Assembly (NCBI RefSeq): GCF_002261345.1
Contig: NZ_NEVT01000006.1
Location: 682,001 to 746,000, forward strand
Origin: Bordetella genomosp. 2
Lineage (GTDB): Bacteria > Pseudomonadota > Gammaproteobacteria > Burkholderiales > Burkholderiaceae_B
Direction of reading: 5' to 3'
Length of the DNA: 64,000 nt
Below the pieces are notes generated by a model, which saw nothing but the letters and a program-made list of their open reading frames with translations, had not been told where the DNA came from and ran no database searches. This document shows positions 29,251 through 36,110 of this stretch, piece by piece. Within the stretch, counting starts at the first letter, position 1, and each line of letters starts with the position of its first letter. The position numbers were made by a program, and so were the translations under genes.

Positions 29251-29559
29251 ATGCTCGTCAAACTGCTGATCATCGCGGTCTTCATCGTCCTGCTGCTGTA
29301 TGTCGTCCTGCCCAAGCGGCGCGGCCCCGCAGCGCCGCCCCGCGCGGGACGGCTGATGCTGACGCTGCTGGCCAGCGCAGCGGTGCTGTTGTTCGTCCTG
29401 TCGCTGTTCTGCGCCCTGCTCTGGCTGGGCGGGATATCCGGCGCCGTGACGGGCGGCGGCGAGGTGCTGGGCGGCACGGGGCTGCTGCGCATCGCCGGCC
29501 TGCTGCTGGTGTTGTCGATTGCCTGCGCGGTTGCCGCGCTGCTGAAACGGCCGCGCTGA
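29251..29559 (+). CDS. Small membrane protein, function unknown
   Basis: 102-residue protein with about three hydrophobic helices (residues 2-21, 36-60, 78-96) and short Arg/Pro-rich cytoplasmic loops (PKRRGPAAPPRAGR). I do not recognise a family. It follows lysS by 15 bases in the same direction, so it is likely on the same transcript. The Gly-rich stretch GGGEVLGGTG separates helices two and three. The gene ends at a GC-rich hairpin shared with the convergent isc operon end. Confidence 0.7.
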   Translation: MLVKLLIIAVFIVLLLYVVLPKRRGPAAPPRAGRLMLTLLASAAVLLFVLSLFCALLWLGGISGAVTGGGEVLGGTGLLRIAGLLLVLSIACAVAALLKRPR

Positions 29560-29578: not shown

Positions 29579-30469
29579 TCAGGCCGCGCGCCGCTCCATT
29601 GCCTGGGCCCAGCGCCGCGCCACCGACGGCGACGTCGCGCAGATCGCCGATTCCGTCACCACCCGCACGGCCCGCTCCAGCAACTGGATATCGGCCTCGT
29701 GCTGGCGCGCCACATGCGGATCCTCAAAGAAGATCACGCGCTGGCACTGGTGCTCGAGCACCAGTTCGGCGATCTGCGCGTCGCCGCCCAGCGGGCCGCT
29801 CAAGTAGCGGTGCACCCAGGGACGGTCGGCCGGCCAGCCGCGCGCCCAGGCCAGCTCGTTCAGGCGCGCGCCCGTCGTGCCGGTGGCCACGCGCCGCTCG
29901 AACTTCGACAGCAGGTCGAAATGGTCGGCCGCGAAAGCGACCATCTGGTCCTTGAGCGCATCGTGCGAGATCAGCGCCAGGGTGTGGCGCCCGAAATCGA
30001 ACAGGCGGGACACGGAAGGATCCGGGCGCAGGCCGGCATGCAGGCGCTCCACTTCCATCCACTCGATGGCGCCGGCCAGCGTGGAAATGAACGGCCGCCC
30101 GTGCGTGATGCACTGGCGCTTGAGCGCCAGGGCTTCGGGAAAAATGGATGACGGATCGACCGGGTCGATCAGGTAGATGGCGCCGTCGAACGGCGCCTCG
30201 CCTTCGCGGCCCTCGGTCACCCGGGCCACCAGCTTCATCAGGCCGCCCTCGCGCCCGTACGGATAGCGGATCAGGCCCGGATAGCCCTGCAGCATGCCCT
30301 CGCGCACGATGGCATCGTGCGTGCGCCCCACGGTGTGCAACTGGACGCCGAGCTCGCGGATCGCCGGCGAGCTGGCCCTCAGCCAGGAAAACAGCGCCGC
30401 GTCGGGAGTCTCGTGATGCAGGCGGTTGGCCGCCAGGCCGAAGCGCAATCCGGCGGGAGCGGACGCCAT
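29579..30469 (-). CDS. Tandem methylglyoxal-synthase-like protein (one intact, one degenerate domain)
   Basis: 296 residues, about twice the length of methylglyoxal synthase. The C-terminal half (~162-296) aligns with E. coli MgsA, which turns dihydroxyacetone phosphate into methylglyoxal: SHD (His169, Asp170), ATGTTG (195-200), SGPLGGD (Asp230), FFEDP (Asp250), His257 and Asp260 match the catalytic His19, Asp20, Asp71, Asp91, His98 and Asp101. The N-terminal half (~8-145) has the same order of segments but lost nearly all of these (Asn-Arg for His-Asp, Leu for Asp71), keeping only the Asp in LIDP. It starts three bases after iscX, at the end of the isc operon. Confidence 0.83.
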   Translation of the reverse strand: MASAPAGLRFGLAANRLHHETPDAALFSWLRASSPAIRELGVQLHTVGRTHDAIVREGMLQGYPGLIRYPYGREGGLMKLVARVTEGREGEAPFDGAIYLIDPVDPSSIFPEALALKRQCITHGRPFISTLAGAIEWMEVERLHAGLRPDPSVSRLFDFGRHTLALISHDALKDQMVAFAADHFDLLSKFERRVATGTTGARLNELAWARGWPADRPWVHRYLSGPLGGDAQIAELVLEHQCQRVIFFEDPHVARQHEADIQLLERAVRVVTESAICATSPSVARRWAQAMERRAA

Positions 30470-30472
30470 GGG

Positions 30473-30667
30473 TCAGTCCGCCTCGTCGATCCAGGCCATC
30501 TGGATGGCCTCCAGGATCTTCTCGCCGCAACGGGCCGGATCGTCGTCGAAGCCGGGCAGCGCCAGCACCCACTCGCGCAGCTGCGTGAAACGCACCGTGT
30601 TGGGATCCACGTCCGGGTGCGCATCGGCCAGCGCGGCCGCGATGTCATATGTATCGACCCACTTCAT
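30473..30667 (-). CDS. iscX: Fe-S cluster assembly protein IscX
   Basis: 64-residue acidic protein (YfhJ/IscX) that binds IscS and tunes iron delivery and sulfur transfer in ISC assembly. Seen: MKWVDTYDIAAALADAHPD at the N-terminus and LPGFDDDPARCGEKILEAIQMAWIDE at the end, the family acidic helix. The start overlaps the ferredoxin stop by one base (TGATG-type junction). Length is normal for the family. Confidence 0.94.
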   Translation of the reverse strand: MKWVDTYDIAAALADAHPDVDPNTVRFTQLREWVLALPGFDDDPARCGEKILEAIQMAWIDEAD

Positions 30668-31008
30668 CAATGACCCTCTTTGGCGTGATTGATAGTGTAC
30701 TTGGGAATCTCGACGGTCAAGTCGGCGTCGGCCACCAGGGCCTGGCAGGACAGGCGCGACGTGGAGCTCAGCCCCCAGGCCTTGTCGAGCAGGTCTTCCT
30801 CGTCGTCGGAAGCATCCTCGAGCGAGGAAAAGCCTTCGCGCACGATCACATGACAGGTGGTGCAGGCGCACGACAACTCGCAGGCGTGCTCGATCTCGAT
30901 GTGATTGTCGAGCAGCACGCGGCAGATCGACTTGCCCTGCGGCGCGTCTTCGATCACGGCGCCGTCGGGGCAGACGTCGGGATGGGGCAATACAGTCAGT
31001 TTAGGCAT
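30667..31008 (-). CDS. fdx: ISC-system [2Fe-2S] ferredoxin
   Basis: 113-residue adrenodoxin-type ferredoxin that donates electrons during cluster assembly on IscU. Cysteine ligands lie in HACELSCACTTCHV (Cys43, Cys49 and Cys52 region) and in SRLSCQAL (~88). The C-terminal Pro-Lys-Tyr segment VEIPKYTIN is typical. It is co-transcribed between hscA (22 bases upstream) and iscX. Confidence 0.95.
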   Translation of the reverse strand: MPKLTVLPHPDVCPDGAVIEDAPQGKSICRVLLDNHIEIEHACELSCACTTCHVIVREGFSSLEDASDDEEDLLDKAWGLSSTSRLSCQALVADADLTVEIPKYTINHAKEGH

Positions 31009-31029
31009 AAGTTCGAGTGGGCGGTTCGG

Positions 31030-32895
31030 TCAGGCGATTTCGTCCAGCTTGCGGCCGGCCAGGGCGGCGCGGATGCCGCGGTCCATGCGGCGCGCGGCGA
31101 ATTCCTCGGTGGCGTCCGAGAGGGCCTGGACGGCGGCGCGCACGAGCTCGACATCGGCCGCCTGTTGGGCGGCCTCGGCCTCCCGCAGGCGCTGGTCGAC
31201 CAGGCGGCGCTCGTCGGCATCGAGCAGGTCGCCGTCGCTGGCCAGGGCGGCGCGCACCGACTCCACCAGCTGGCGCGCCTCGACCTGCTGCTCGCGCAAC
31301 ATGCGCGCCTGCGCATCGCTGTCGGCCTGCGCCACGCTGTCGGCCAGCATGCGGGAGATCTCGTCATCGGACAGCCCATAGGACGGCTTGACCGACACGG
31401 CCGCCTCGATGCCGGTGCTCTGCTCGCGCGCCGTGACGCTCAGCAGGCCATCGGCGTCGACCTGGAAGGTCACGCGGATGCGCGCCGCGCCGGCCACCAT
31501 GGGCGGGATGCCGCGCAGCTCGAAGCGCGCCAGCGACCGGCAATCGGACACCAGGTCACGCTCGCCCTGCACCACGTGCAGGCTCATCGCGCCCTGCCCG
31601 TCCTTGAAAGTGGTGAATTCCTGGGCGCGCGCCACCGGGATGGTGCTGTTGCGCGGGATGATGCGCTCGACCAGCCCGCCCATGGTTTCCAGCCCCAGCG
31701 ACAGCGGGATCACGTCCAGCAACAGCCAGTCCTCGCCGGGCATGCGGTTGCCGGCCAGCAGGTTGGCCTGCAGGGCCGCGCCCAGCGCCACGACCTGGTC
31801 CGGATCCAGGTCCACCAGCGGCTCGGTGCCGAACAACTCGCCCACGGCCTGGCGGATCACCGGCATGCGCGTCGCGCCGCCCACCATGACCACGCCCTTG
31901 ACGTCGGATACCGCCAGCCCCGCGTCGCGCAAGGCGGCCCGGGCGCGCTCCAGCGTGCGACGCACCAGCGGTTCGGCCAGTTGCTCGAACTGCTCGCGCG
32001 TCAGCTCCACATCCAGCGCGCGGCCATCCTGCAGGTCGACGCGCAGCGCGGCGGACTGCTCGCTCGACAGCGCCTCGCGCGCCGCCCGGGCGGCCACCAG
32101 CACGGCGCGCCGGTCGGCTGCCTCCAGTTGCACGTCGGCGCCCAGGGTGCCGCGGGCGTACTCGGCGATCGCCCAATCGAAATCGTCGCCGCCCAGCGCC
32201 GTATCGCCGCCGGTGGCGACCACCTCGAACACGCCCTTGGTCAGGCGCAGGATGGAAATGTCGAAAGTGCCGCCGCCCAGGTCGTAGACGGCATAAGTGC
32301 CCTCGGCGGCCTGATCCAGCCCATAGGCAATGGCGGCCGCCGTCGGTTCGTTGAGCAGGCGCAGCACGTTGAGCCCGGCCAGGCGGGCGGCATCGCGCGT
32401 GGCCTGGCGCTGGGCATCGTCGAAATAAGCCGGCACGGTGATCACCGCGCCCACCAGGTCGTCGCCCAGCACGTCTTCGGCGCGCTGGCGCAGCACCGCC
32501 AGGATCTGCGCCGAGATCTCCACCGGGCTGAGATCGCCCTGCACCGTGCGCAGCCGCACCATGCCGGGAGCATCGACGAATTCGTAGGGGGCCCCGCTGG
32601 CGCGCGCTTCCTCGAGCGAACGGCCCATGAAGCGCTTGACCGACACGATAGTGTTGAAAGGGTCGGCCGCCTGCTGGGCCAGGGCCGCTGCGCCGATCAC
32701 GGCGCGGCCGTCGGCCAGGTAGCGCACGGCGGATGGCAGCAAGGGCCGGCCATCGGCATCGCCCAGCACTTCGGGCGTGCTGCTGCGCACCGCGGCCACC
32801 AGGGAATTGGTCGTGCCCAGGTCGATGCCCACCGCAAGCTTGCGCTGGTGCGGCGCGGGCGATTCGCCGGGCTCGGAAATCTGCAATAAGGCCAT
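31030..32895 (-). CDS. hscA: Fe-S-specific Hsp70 chaperone HscA
   Basis: 621-residue Hsp70 that releases Fe-S clusters from IscU, with HscB as co-chaperone. ATPase domain: [12 protein letters not shown] at ~26, [42 protein letters not shown] and [10 protein letters not shown]. Substrate domain follows from ~395 ([17 protein letters not shown]), and the helical lid runs to the end. Size and sequence are standard for HscA. It is separated from hscB by 57 bases, the second-largest gap in the operon body. Confidence 0.97.
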
Positions 32896-32952
32896 GATTA
32901 TGCTTCGGATCGGAAAGCTAGAAACAGTGCGACACCGGCCGCCGGAACCGCG

Positions 32953-33462
32953 CTAGGCCGGCCGCGCGGCGGCCAGCTCCTGCGCGAGTTTTTCGACGAA
33001 CATCCATTCGCGCACCTTGATGCCGGCGGCGGCGAAGTCGCGCCGGGTGTCGAGCAATGTAGCCAGCGTGGCGCGCATTTCCTGGCGGGCCTGCTGCAAT
33101 TCGGCATCGAGCGCGGCGAACGCGGCCGGGTCCTGGCGCGCCTCGTCCAGCATCTCGCGCCATTGCATCTGCTGCATCAGGAAGGCCGGGTCCATGGCGG
33201 TGTTGCTTTCGGTCTGCAGGTCCACGCCCGCCTGCTCACACAGGTAGCGGGCCCGCAGCAGCGGATCGCGCAATTGCCGGTAGGCTTCATTGGCGCGCGC
33301 GGCCCATTGCATGGCGACGCGGCGCTCGGCCGGGCTGGCGGTGGCATAGCGGTCGGGGTGCACCCGCGCCGCCACGGCGCGCCAGGCCTGCTCGAGCGCC
33401 TGGGCATCCAGCTCGAACCGGGGCGGCAGGCCGAACAGGCTGAAATGATCGTCGCCGGCCAA
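32953..33462 (-). CDS. hscB: Co-chaperone HscB
   Basis: 169-residue J-domain protein that delivers IscU to HscA. The J domain has the HPD motif in ARVHPDRYATAS (~35) and the N-terminal DDHFSLFGLPPRFELD; the C-terminal helical bundle (~90-165) binds IscU. It lacks the N-terminal zinc site of animal homologues, as normal for bacteria. It starts three bases after iscA. Confidence 0.95.
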   Translation of the reverse strand: MAGDDHFSLFGLPPRFELDAQALEQAWRAVAARVHPDRYATASPAERRVAMQWAARANEAYRQLRDPLLRARYLCEQAGVDLQTESNTAMDPAFLMQQMQWREMLDEARQDPAAFAALDAELQQARQEMRATLATLLDTRRDFAAAGIKVREWMFVEKLAQELAAARPA

Positions 33463-33465
33463 GAC

Positions 33466-33789
33466 CTACACCGTGAACGACTCGCCGCAGCCGCAGGTCG
33501 CCTTCTCGTTGGGGTTGCGGAACTTGAAGCCTTCGTTCAGGCCTTCGCGCGCGTAGTCCAGCTCCGTGCCGTCCAGGTAGGCGAGGCTTTTCGGGTCCAC
33601 GAACACCTTGACGCCAAAGCTTTCGAAGACCAGGTCTTCGGCCGCGGGTTCGTCCACGTACTCGAGTTTGTAGGCCATCCCCGAGCACCCGGTGGTCCGC
33701 ACGCCCAGGCGCAGGCCCAGGCCCTTGCCGCGCTTCTGCAAGTAGCGTCCGATATGGGACGCGGCCTGTTGGGTCAGGGTGACAGACAT
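33466..33789 (-). CDS. iscA: A-type Fe-S carrier IscA
   Basis: 107-residue A-type carrier. The three cysteines appear in [15 protein letters not shown] (first) and CGCGESF at the C-terminus (two). It carries iron or [Fe-S] units to target proteins. Location one base after iscU in the operon separates it from ErpA-type paralogues. Confidence 0.95.
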
Positions 33790-33790
33790 A

Positions 33791-34216
33791 TCAGCCCGCC
33801 GCGACAGCCGCCGCCGCGGGTTCGGCCTGCGCCGGCGCCGCGTGCTTGTCCTTGTAGTCCTGCACCGCCGCCTTGATGGCGTCTTCGGCCAGGATCGAGC
33901 AGTGGATCTTCACCGGCGGCAAAGCCAGTTCCTCGGCGATCTGGGTATTGCGGATGTTGAGCGCCTCGTCCAGCGTCTTGCCCTTGACCCACTCGGTGAC
34001 CAGCGAGCTGGACGCGATGGCCGAGCCGCAGCCGTACGTCTTGAAGCGCGCGTCTTCGATCACGCCCGACTCGTTGACCTTGATCTGCAGCTTCATCACG
34101 TCGCCGCAGGCCGGCGCGCCGACCATGCCGGTACCCACCGAGGCGTCGCCCTTGTCGAACGAGCCCACGTTGCGGGGGTTTTCATAGTGGTCCAGAACTT
34201 TGGTGCTGTATGCCAT
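33791..34216 (-). CDS. iscU: Fe-S cluster scaffold IscU
   Basis: 141-residue scaffold on which [2Fe-2S] clusters are built. Ligands: [11 protein letters not shown] (Cys37 region with the Asp), YGCGSAIAS (Cys63 region) and KIHCSILAE (Cys106 region), plus the HscA-binding LPPVK just before the last cysteine. The C-terminus carries an extra Ala/Pro-rich tail ([16 protein letters not shown], ~126-141) absent from E. coli IscU. It lies 31 bases after iscS. Confidence 0.97.
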
Positions 34217-34247
34217 GATGTTTCTCCTGTGTCGATCGCGCGGGCGC

Positions 34248-35459
34248 TCAGTGCGCGGCCCACTGCACGGTGTTCAGGTCGATGCCGGCCTGGGCCATTT
34301 CCCACAGCGGCGACATGTCGCGCAGCTTGCCCACGCGGCTCTTGATGAGTTCGACGGTGAAATCCACTTCCTGCTCGGTGGTGAAGCGGCCCAGCGTGAA
34401 GCGGATCGAGCTGTGCGCCAGCTCGTCGTTGCGCCCCAGGGCGCGCAGCACGTAGGAAGGCTCCAGGCTGGCCGAGGTGCAGGCCGAGCCGCTGGAAACG
34501 GCCAGTTCCTTGATCGCCATGATCAGCGATTCGCCTTCGACGTAATTGAAGCTGACGTTCAGGTTGTGCGGCACGCGCTGCTCGAGGCTGCCATTCAGGT
34601 AGGTTTCCTCGATCTGGGAAAGCCCCGCCCACAGGCGGTCGCGCAACATGCGGATGCGCTCGTTCTCGGTGCCCATTTCCTCGCGGGCCAGGCGAAAGGC
34701 TTCGCCCATGCCGACGATCTGGTGGGTGGCCAGCGTGCCGGACCGGAACCCGCGCTCGTGTCCGCCGCCATGCATCTGCGCCTCGATGCGCACGCGCGGC
34801 TTGCGCCGCACATACAGCGCCCCGATGCCCTTGGGGCCGTAGGTCTTGTGCGCCGAGAACGACATCAGGTCGACCTTGAGCTTCTGCAGGTCGATCTCGA
34901 CCTTGCCGGTGGCCTGCGCGGCGTCGACATGGAACACGATGCCCTTGTCGCGGCAGATCTCGCCCAGCGTCTCGATGTCCTGGATGACGCCGATCTCGTT
35001 GTTGACCATCATCACCGACACCAGGATGGTGTCCGGCCGCAGCGCCGCCTTGAAGGCATCCAGGTCCAGCAGGCCATCGTCGCGGACGTCCAGGTAGGTG
35101 ACCTCGAAGCCCTGGCGCTCGAGCTCGCGACAGGTGTCCAGCACCGCCTTGTGCTCGGTCTTGACCGTAATGACGTGCTTGCCGCGCTCGGCGTAGAAAT
35201 TGGCCGCGCCCTTGATGGCCAGGTTGTCGGACTCGGTGGCGCCGGACGTCCAGATGATTTCACGCGGGTCGGCGTTGACCAGCTTGGCGACTTCCTGGCG
35301 GGCGTTCTCGACAGCCTCTTCCGCTTCCCAGCCGAACGAATGGCTGCGCGAAGCGGGGTTGCCGAAGTTGTCGTACAGCCAGGGCACCATCTTTTCGACC
35401 ACGCGAGGGTCGACCGGCGTGGTGGCGGAATAATCGAGATAGATCGGGCGGGTGGTCAT
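34248..35459 (-). CDS. iscS: Cysteine desulfurase IscS
   Basis: 403-residue PLP enzyme that takes sulfur from cysteine for Fe-S clusters and tRNA thiolation. PLP lysine is in [12 protein letters not shown] (~205); the sulfur-carrying Cys lies in [17 protein letters not shown] (~327). The C-terminal [12 protein letters not shown] matches IscS rather than SufS. GAGTAGC-type spacing places it 16 bases after iscR. Confidence 0.98.
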
Positions 35460-35475
35460 GTGTTGCTACTCCTGC

Positions 35476-36012
35476 TTATACGGTGGCGTCGGCGGCAATG
35501 GCCGAGGCGGTCGAGGCGGACCCGGGAGTGCCCCGTTCCACCCGCACGGCGGTGCAGCCCTGGGCGGCCTTGGACGCCTCCTGCAGCTGCCGCAGGCGCT
35601 GCTGATCGACCAGGTCCTGCAGCGACACGGAATCGAGGTAGTCGACCATCTTGCGGTTCAGCGTGGTCCAGAGCTCGTGCGTCATGCACTTGCCGCTCTT
35701 GCCGTCGTTGCCGCTGGTGCAATCGTGCTTGCCCCCGCAGCTGGTGGCGTCGAGCGGCTCGTCGACCGCGAAAATGATGTCGGCGACGGTGACGTTGCGC
35801 GCCAGGCGGGCCAGCGAGTAGCCGCCGCCGGGGCCGCGCACGCTGTCGACCAGTTCGTGCCGGCGCAGCTTGCCAAAAAGCTGCTCCAGGTAAGAAAGAG
35901 AAATATTCTGGCGCTGGCTGATCGCCGCGAGAGTCACCGGACCGCTGTGCTGCCGCATGGCCAGGTCGATCATCGCGGTTACCGCGAAACGCCCTTTGGT
36001 AGTGAGCCGCAT
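35476..36012 (-). CDS. iscR: Iron-sulfur cluster regulator IscR
   Basis: 178-residue Rrf2 family repressor with a winged helix (residues 1-60) and a [2Fe-2S]-binding segment. Ligands are Cys92, Cys98, Cys109 and His112; relative to E. coli (92, 98, 104, 107) five residues (GNDGK region) are inserted between the second and third cysteine. With a cluster it represses its own operon; apo-IscR acts on other sites. ATG 36012 starts the conserved MRLTTKGRFA; an earlier Met at 36057 would add 15 residues and overlap the operator region. Confidence 0.96.
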   Translation of the reverse strand: MRLTTKGRFAVTAMIDLAMRQHSGPVTLAAISQRQNISLSYLEQLFGKLRRHELVDSVRGPGGGYSLARLARNVTVADIIFAVDEPLDATSCGGKHDCTSGNDGKSGKCMTHELWTTLNRKMVDYLDSVSLQDLVDQQRLRQLQEASKAAQGCTAVRVERGTPGSASTASAIAADATV

Positions 36013-36060
36013 GGTGGATTCCTGTTGAACGGGCTGGCTGCCCGCAACGTGGGGCAACCA

Positions 36061-36110
36061 ATACCTGAGTAATTACCTCAAGTATAGCAAATTCCCGAGT
36101 AATTTGCTAA
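36061..36110 (-). promoter_or_regulatory. iscR promoter with two IscR-like sites
   Basis: On the minus strand TTAGCA (36105-36110) and TATACT (36081-36086) form a promoter with an 18-base gap. A near-palindrome at 36061-36085, with ATACCTGAG at one end and CTCAAGTAT at the other, covers the -10 and the start region and resembles type 1 IscR sites. A second dyad, AGCAAATT/AATTTGCT around seven bases (36086-36108), lies over the spacer and carries ACTCGGGAAT, also IscR-like. Cluster-loaded IscR would block transcription here. Confidence 0.8.

Follow-up and report, generated by a model that had tools for sequence, protein, structure and literature searches.

A 64,000-nucleotide (nt) stretch of Bordetella genomosp. 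2 (contig NZ_NEVT01000006.1, positions 682,001 to 746,000; hereafter the window) encodes on its minus strand, at 29579..30469, a protein of 296 amino acids (aa) in which two methylglyoxal synthase (MGS) folds are joined in tandem. This variant two-domain MGS is real, common to several families and apparently undescribed; the open-licence literature searched yielded no description of a two-domain MGS, or of an MGS together with isc genes. In the explanation that we favor, at a probability of roughly 0.5, the C-terminal half (C half) is catalytic, the N-terminal half (N half) has been kept as an effector-binding regulatory domain, and the position beside isc is a feature of the Alcaligenaceae neighborhood. 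Control of methylglyoxal synthesis matters, as the product damages proteins and DNA, and with a fused, conserved non-catalytic copy, nature would provide a protein whose allostery could be teased apart from its catalysis through truncation or mutation of a single half.

Two folds and a probably catalytic C half

The N half (residues 1-157; 29999..30469) and the C half (residues 158-296 plus stop; 29579..29998) both match the MGS fold, the N half in fold only, and the full-length structural model scored 85.8 for predicted local distance difference (pLDDT) and 0.88 for predicted template modeling (pTM). This agrees with the original prediction, made from the letters of the window, of two MGS folds in one polypeptide. 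Solved MGS chains align with the C half alone, and a direct comparison of N-half and C-half profiles gave a weak result. One of three MGS models is passed by the window protein (NCBIfam NF003559, methylglyoxal synthase, residues 162-272); these models were calibrated on one-domain proteins, and their cut-offs do not describe the enzyme itself. The gene is the sole MGS match in the 5.02 Mb genome. A chance reading frame was ruled out by 80 relatives’ loci with 68-94% identity.

The six catalytic residues of E. coli MgsA (H19, D20, D71, D91, H98, D101) correspond to H169, D170, D230, D250, H257 and D260 of the C half, all at the positions first proposed, and show no variation among 31 tandem C halves. 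K173, T196-T199 (TGTT) and S224-G225-P226 (SGP) are likewise present in all 31 tandem proteins, while the last residue of TGTTG is G in 25 of them and S in the other 6. PMC7843640 gives K23, S65-G66-P67 and TGTTG as phosphate-binding residues, and these have counterparts in the C half. In fold, in the catalytic set and in phosphate-binding residues the C half is like MgsA (EC 4.2.3.3; NF003559; PDB 1wo8, 1b93, 6f2c). Judged by residues, fold and context, it should be a catalytic MGS, converting dihydroxyacetone phosphate (DHAP) to methylglyoxal with loss of phosphate.

MgsA is a single domain of about 130-150 aa, whereas the window protein adds a preceding non-catalytic MGS fold and has other fixed residues in the active-site loop. 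E249, H252, V253, R255, A259, L263 and E265 of this loop occur in 31/31 tandem proteins and in 0/20 sampled single MGSs (Q262 is also fixed in tandem C halves, but occurs in Thermus MGS too). These seven residues, and the passing of one MGS model in three, are what a lyase that has given up DHAP specificity for another substrate might present; we think such a change improbable given that all six catalytic residues and the phosphate-binding residues are kept, and that distant members (below) lie in glpD and edd-eda contexts with DJ-1/PfpI genes.

A conserved, non-catalytic N half

The N half was originally described as having lost nearly all catalytic residues and as degenerate. The loss is confirmed: one residue of the catalytic set is kept (D102, the counterpart of Asp91), one is changed from Asp to Glu (E112 for Asp101) and four are gone. 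Simple degeneracy is not supported, since the N half has invariant residues of its own. Across the 28 nearer sequences these comprise VGRT (47-50), R68, P70, G72, R73, GGLM, DPVDPSS-FPE and ALKRQC, as well as N15, H18, R49, T50, D102, D105, S108, E112, K117, R118, C120 and H123; the most conserved stretch is the loop DPVDPSS-FPE--ALKRQC, equivalent to the C-half loop. In a set of 51 representatives (<93% identity), 42 positions of the N half and 45 of the C half are invariant; in the 28 nearer sequences, the counts are 45 and 47. The 51-row set included locus L120 (4627-5535, from a metagenome-assembled genome of the Lysobacterales), a tandem gene copy with an in-frame stop that was left out of later sets; the single-domain, overlong frames L031 and L033 were left out of the full-length set. 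Mere decay of the N half was rejected because its invariants are as many as those of the C half, with the caveat of the two distant members described below.

We propose that the N half, a second MGS fold that lost its catalytic set, is kept under selection as a regulatory domain, and that its pocket (R49-T50, R68, R73, D102, D105, S108, K117-R118 and others) would bind a small, probably phosphorylated effector. The N half may set C-half activity via two matched loops, one after the fifth strand of each half (residues about 101-120 and 249-266), and at the same time fill half the positions of the usual hexamer; from their conservation, we infer that the two loops work together. The MGS-like regulatory domain of carbamoyl phosphate synthetase (PDB 1a9x, 5dou) is likewise a non-catalytic MGS fold on a catalytic protein, and its role is allosteric, as several PDB titles also state. 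The tandem-type universal stress protein UspE (PDB 5cb0, 4wy2) belongs to a different family (root-mean-square deviation about 5 Å, 9% identity).

A purely structural N half would be a pseudo-subunit with no ligand of its own, completing a hexamer-like ring of three chains and positioning the C-half active sites. MGS enzymes are modeled as hexamers in PMC7843640; the unusual invariant residues in the equivalent loop of both halves and the pTM of the full-length model are also consistent with such packing. However, many polar or charged invariants occupy the MGS active-site position (VGRT, R68-PYGR, DPVDPSS), apparently beyond what packing needs, and we consider a structural role by itself unlikely.

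Still less probable is an N half that has turned into a second active site and gained a new activity, yielding a bifunctional protein that acts, e.g., on the product or on another phosphorylated substrate. The invariance of N15, H18, R49, T50, R68, R73 and the eight listed residues from D102 to H123 would suit an active site, but the N half contains no known enzyme motif and several of these invariants are lost in the two distant members. Moreover, an N-half profile run against 398 genomes of the phylum gave 12 matches, comprising 11 tandem proteins, all of which also hold the C half, and one single MGS (1.1e-4), with no separate N-half protein among them.

Distribution, distant members and metabolic setting

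The tandem form is common to Alcaligenaceae, other Burkholderiales and Lysobacteraceae. It was found in 8/8 other sampled genomes of the genus and 6/16 genomes of other genera in the family. Within the order, 41 of 300 genomes match, each once: in 14 the match spans both halves and in 27 it is confined to the C half. Within the class, 16 of 369 match, six of them over both halves. No second MGS was seen beside the tandem one in the searches with the window protein (own genome and the genus/family, order and class samples). In a tree with midpoint rooting only, one branch (support 100/100) separates the 31 tandem C halves from the 20 single MGSs. A 365 kb Acidovorax plasmid (NZ_AP029020.1, 168465-169322) also encodes a tandem MGS (55% identity over 95%), which is annotated as methylglyoxal synthase; public annotation of this kind hides the second domain. 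The two locus sets overlap (L043 = L003, L044 = L006, L078 = L009; same contigs), and the codon-usage open reading frame (ORF) script gave no tandem gene call for loci L146, L147, L096, L104 and L111.

Only two long forms were found: one came from the 369 class genomes, the other from a sample of 54 genomes of the same order. L175 (8605-10233; 542 aa) and L176 (4646-6664; 672 aa) are distant tandem MGSs with a long C-terminal extension. The L175 gene follows genes for an Edd/IlvD-type dehydratase and 2-keto-3-deoxy-6-phosphogluconate aldolase (Entner-Doudoroff pathway), in a neighborhood that includes zwf, pgl, a HexR-like regulator (under cut-off) and, on the other strand, a DJ-1/PfpI gene. 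The L176 gene comes after a DJ-1/PfpI gene and glpD, with a GlpR-like regulator (under cut-off) and glpK nearby, and its C-terminal end is a Sugar-bind domain (PF04198, E 2.9e-8), an effector domain. NCBIfam names DJ-1/PfpI proteins deglycase or glyoxalase III, and GlpD makes DHAP. The argument from glycerol and Entner-Doudoroff contexts rests on these two loci. Around 13 other loci outside the Alcaligenaceae (L135-L145, L148, L149; codon-usage ORF calls, with partial or few genes in some) no shared neighborhood theme was seen. The best match to the L176 extension in the 398 phylum genomes was an ORF in genome G636 (L192, 4347-6422) in which, on visual inspection, a SorC-type regulator is fused to a DhaK-like part.

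The chromosome that carries the window gene has no match to phosphofructokinase model PF00365 (9/14 controls positive; the model covers the PfkA type only, and PfkB was not searched); gluconeogenesis or glycerol would therefore be the main source of DHAP. With one glyoxalase I in the chromosome, methylglyoxal would go to lactate. Tentatively, the N half might be a built-in sensor, its former active site converted to an effector pocket, that gates the toxic dicarbonyl's release where glycolysis cannot run downward, to which the distant forms would add a SorC/CggR-type sensor.

Several observations count against a catalytic C half under regulation by the N half. The Pfam MGS and TIGR00160 models match the window protein below cut-off, and the C-half loop is unlike that of single MGSs, which leaves room for a different substrate or mode of control. 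Once the two distant members are included, the invariant positions fall to 23 in the N half vs. 36 in the C half, and none of R49, R68, R73 and H123 is shared by both of them, so the N-half pocket varies within the family. No Pfam family matches the L175 extension, the DJ-1/PfpI gene of L175 lies five genes off the tandem gene on the opposite strand, and the window protein lacks the Sugar-bind extension.

Linkage to the isc cluster

The tandem gene starts 3 nt downstream of iscX (64 aa; 30473..30667, minus strand), as had been noted, and the rest of the isc cluster, iscR-iscS-iscU-iscA-hscB-hscA-fdx (30667..36057; named by reading of products), lies upstream on the same strand. No minus-strand terminator-like site separates iscX from the tandem gene in the window. 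On the minus strand between 29000 and 36400, one promoter-like site was found vs. 0.6 expected by chance; it precedes iscR (36081..36110; TTAGCA-18-TATACT, 9/12, TG before the second hexamer). Also before iscR on this strand is a 25-base imperfect palindrome, ATACTTGAGGTAATTACTCAGGTAT (36061..36085), which we take to resemble an IscR type 1 site (four mismatches, counted by eye), while the presumed E. coli IscR consensus gave 0 sites at ≤3 mismatches.

The proposed sharing of the isc transcript is partly upheld. The 3-nt gap and the lack of a terminator-like site make co-transcription plausible in this genome, where the tandem gene probably rides on the isc transcript, but as a lineage trait and not a rule of the family: 4/9 genomes of the genus share the gap. 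Of the 80 relatives’ loci, 63 carry iscX, iscA or fdx ahead of the tandem gene in the same orientation, the nearest upstream gene being iscX in 44, iscA in 17, fdx in 2 and none of these in 17 (some on short contigs); the linkage is also kept where the cluster is iscRSUA only. The gap in the 63 linked loci is <30 nt in 8, 30-700 nt in 49 and 1.5-4.9 kb in 6. (Relatives’ gene starts were picked by alignment; in a few loci, e.g., L044, L077, L084, L092 and L100, the chosen position has no start codon, and the gaps of these loci are off by a few bases.) A terminator-like hairpin occurs in 38 of the 49 gaps of 30-700 nt vs. 3.3 expected from plain base shuffles (highest of 50 shuffles, 7), and GGTATCAT in 30, in many about 40 nt before the start codon; these 49 gaps come largely from close Achromobacter species and are not independent. 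The hairpins and the conserved GGTATCAT suggest that in most examined relatives with a longer gap the tandem gene probably has its own promoter.

A response to oxidative stress or iron limitation, in which IscR ties methylglyoxal production to iron-sulfur assembly, could draw on the 3-nt gap, on the isc gene upstream in 63/80 loci, iscRSUA-only clusters included, and on Salmonella, in which mgsA, gloA and gloB are reported to be induced under peroxide (PMC10266609). By analogy with the latter, a stress role for the tandem MGS is possible. Against an IscR tie, hairpins and GGTATCAT mark most gaps of 30-700 nt, six gaps reach kilobases, IscR consensus matches are lacking at the threshold above, the sole promoter-like site is near chance expectation, and no isc genes lie beside the tandem gene in the loci examined outside the Alcaligenaceae. 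The functional bond between methylglyoxal and iron-sulfur assembly that was first envisaged is not supported, as isc linkage was found only in the Alcaligenaceae and the two most distant members sit among glycerol and Entner-Doudoroff genes. The isc position looks like a local neighborhood of the Alcaligenaceae more than a functional bond; close packing of two genes in a single genome can hint at a metabolic connection for which relatives offer no support.

Two further features of these loci were observed. Between lysS and the tandem gene, the window holds a 102-aa ORF rich in hydrophobic residues (29251-29559), which recurs at 42-86% identity in several Bordetella loci. In five loci of Alcaligenes and Paenalcaligenes (L099, L100, L103, L105, L108) an iscU-like protein is 28-43% identical to the window IscU, its neighbors being 63-82% identical to theirs; these proteins are perhaps another scaffold type.
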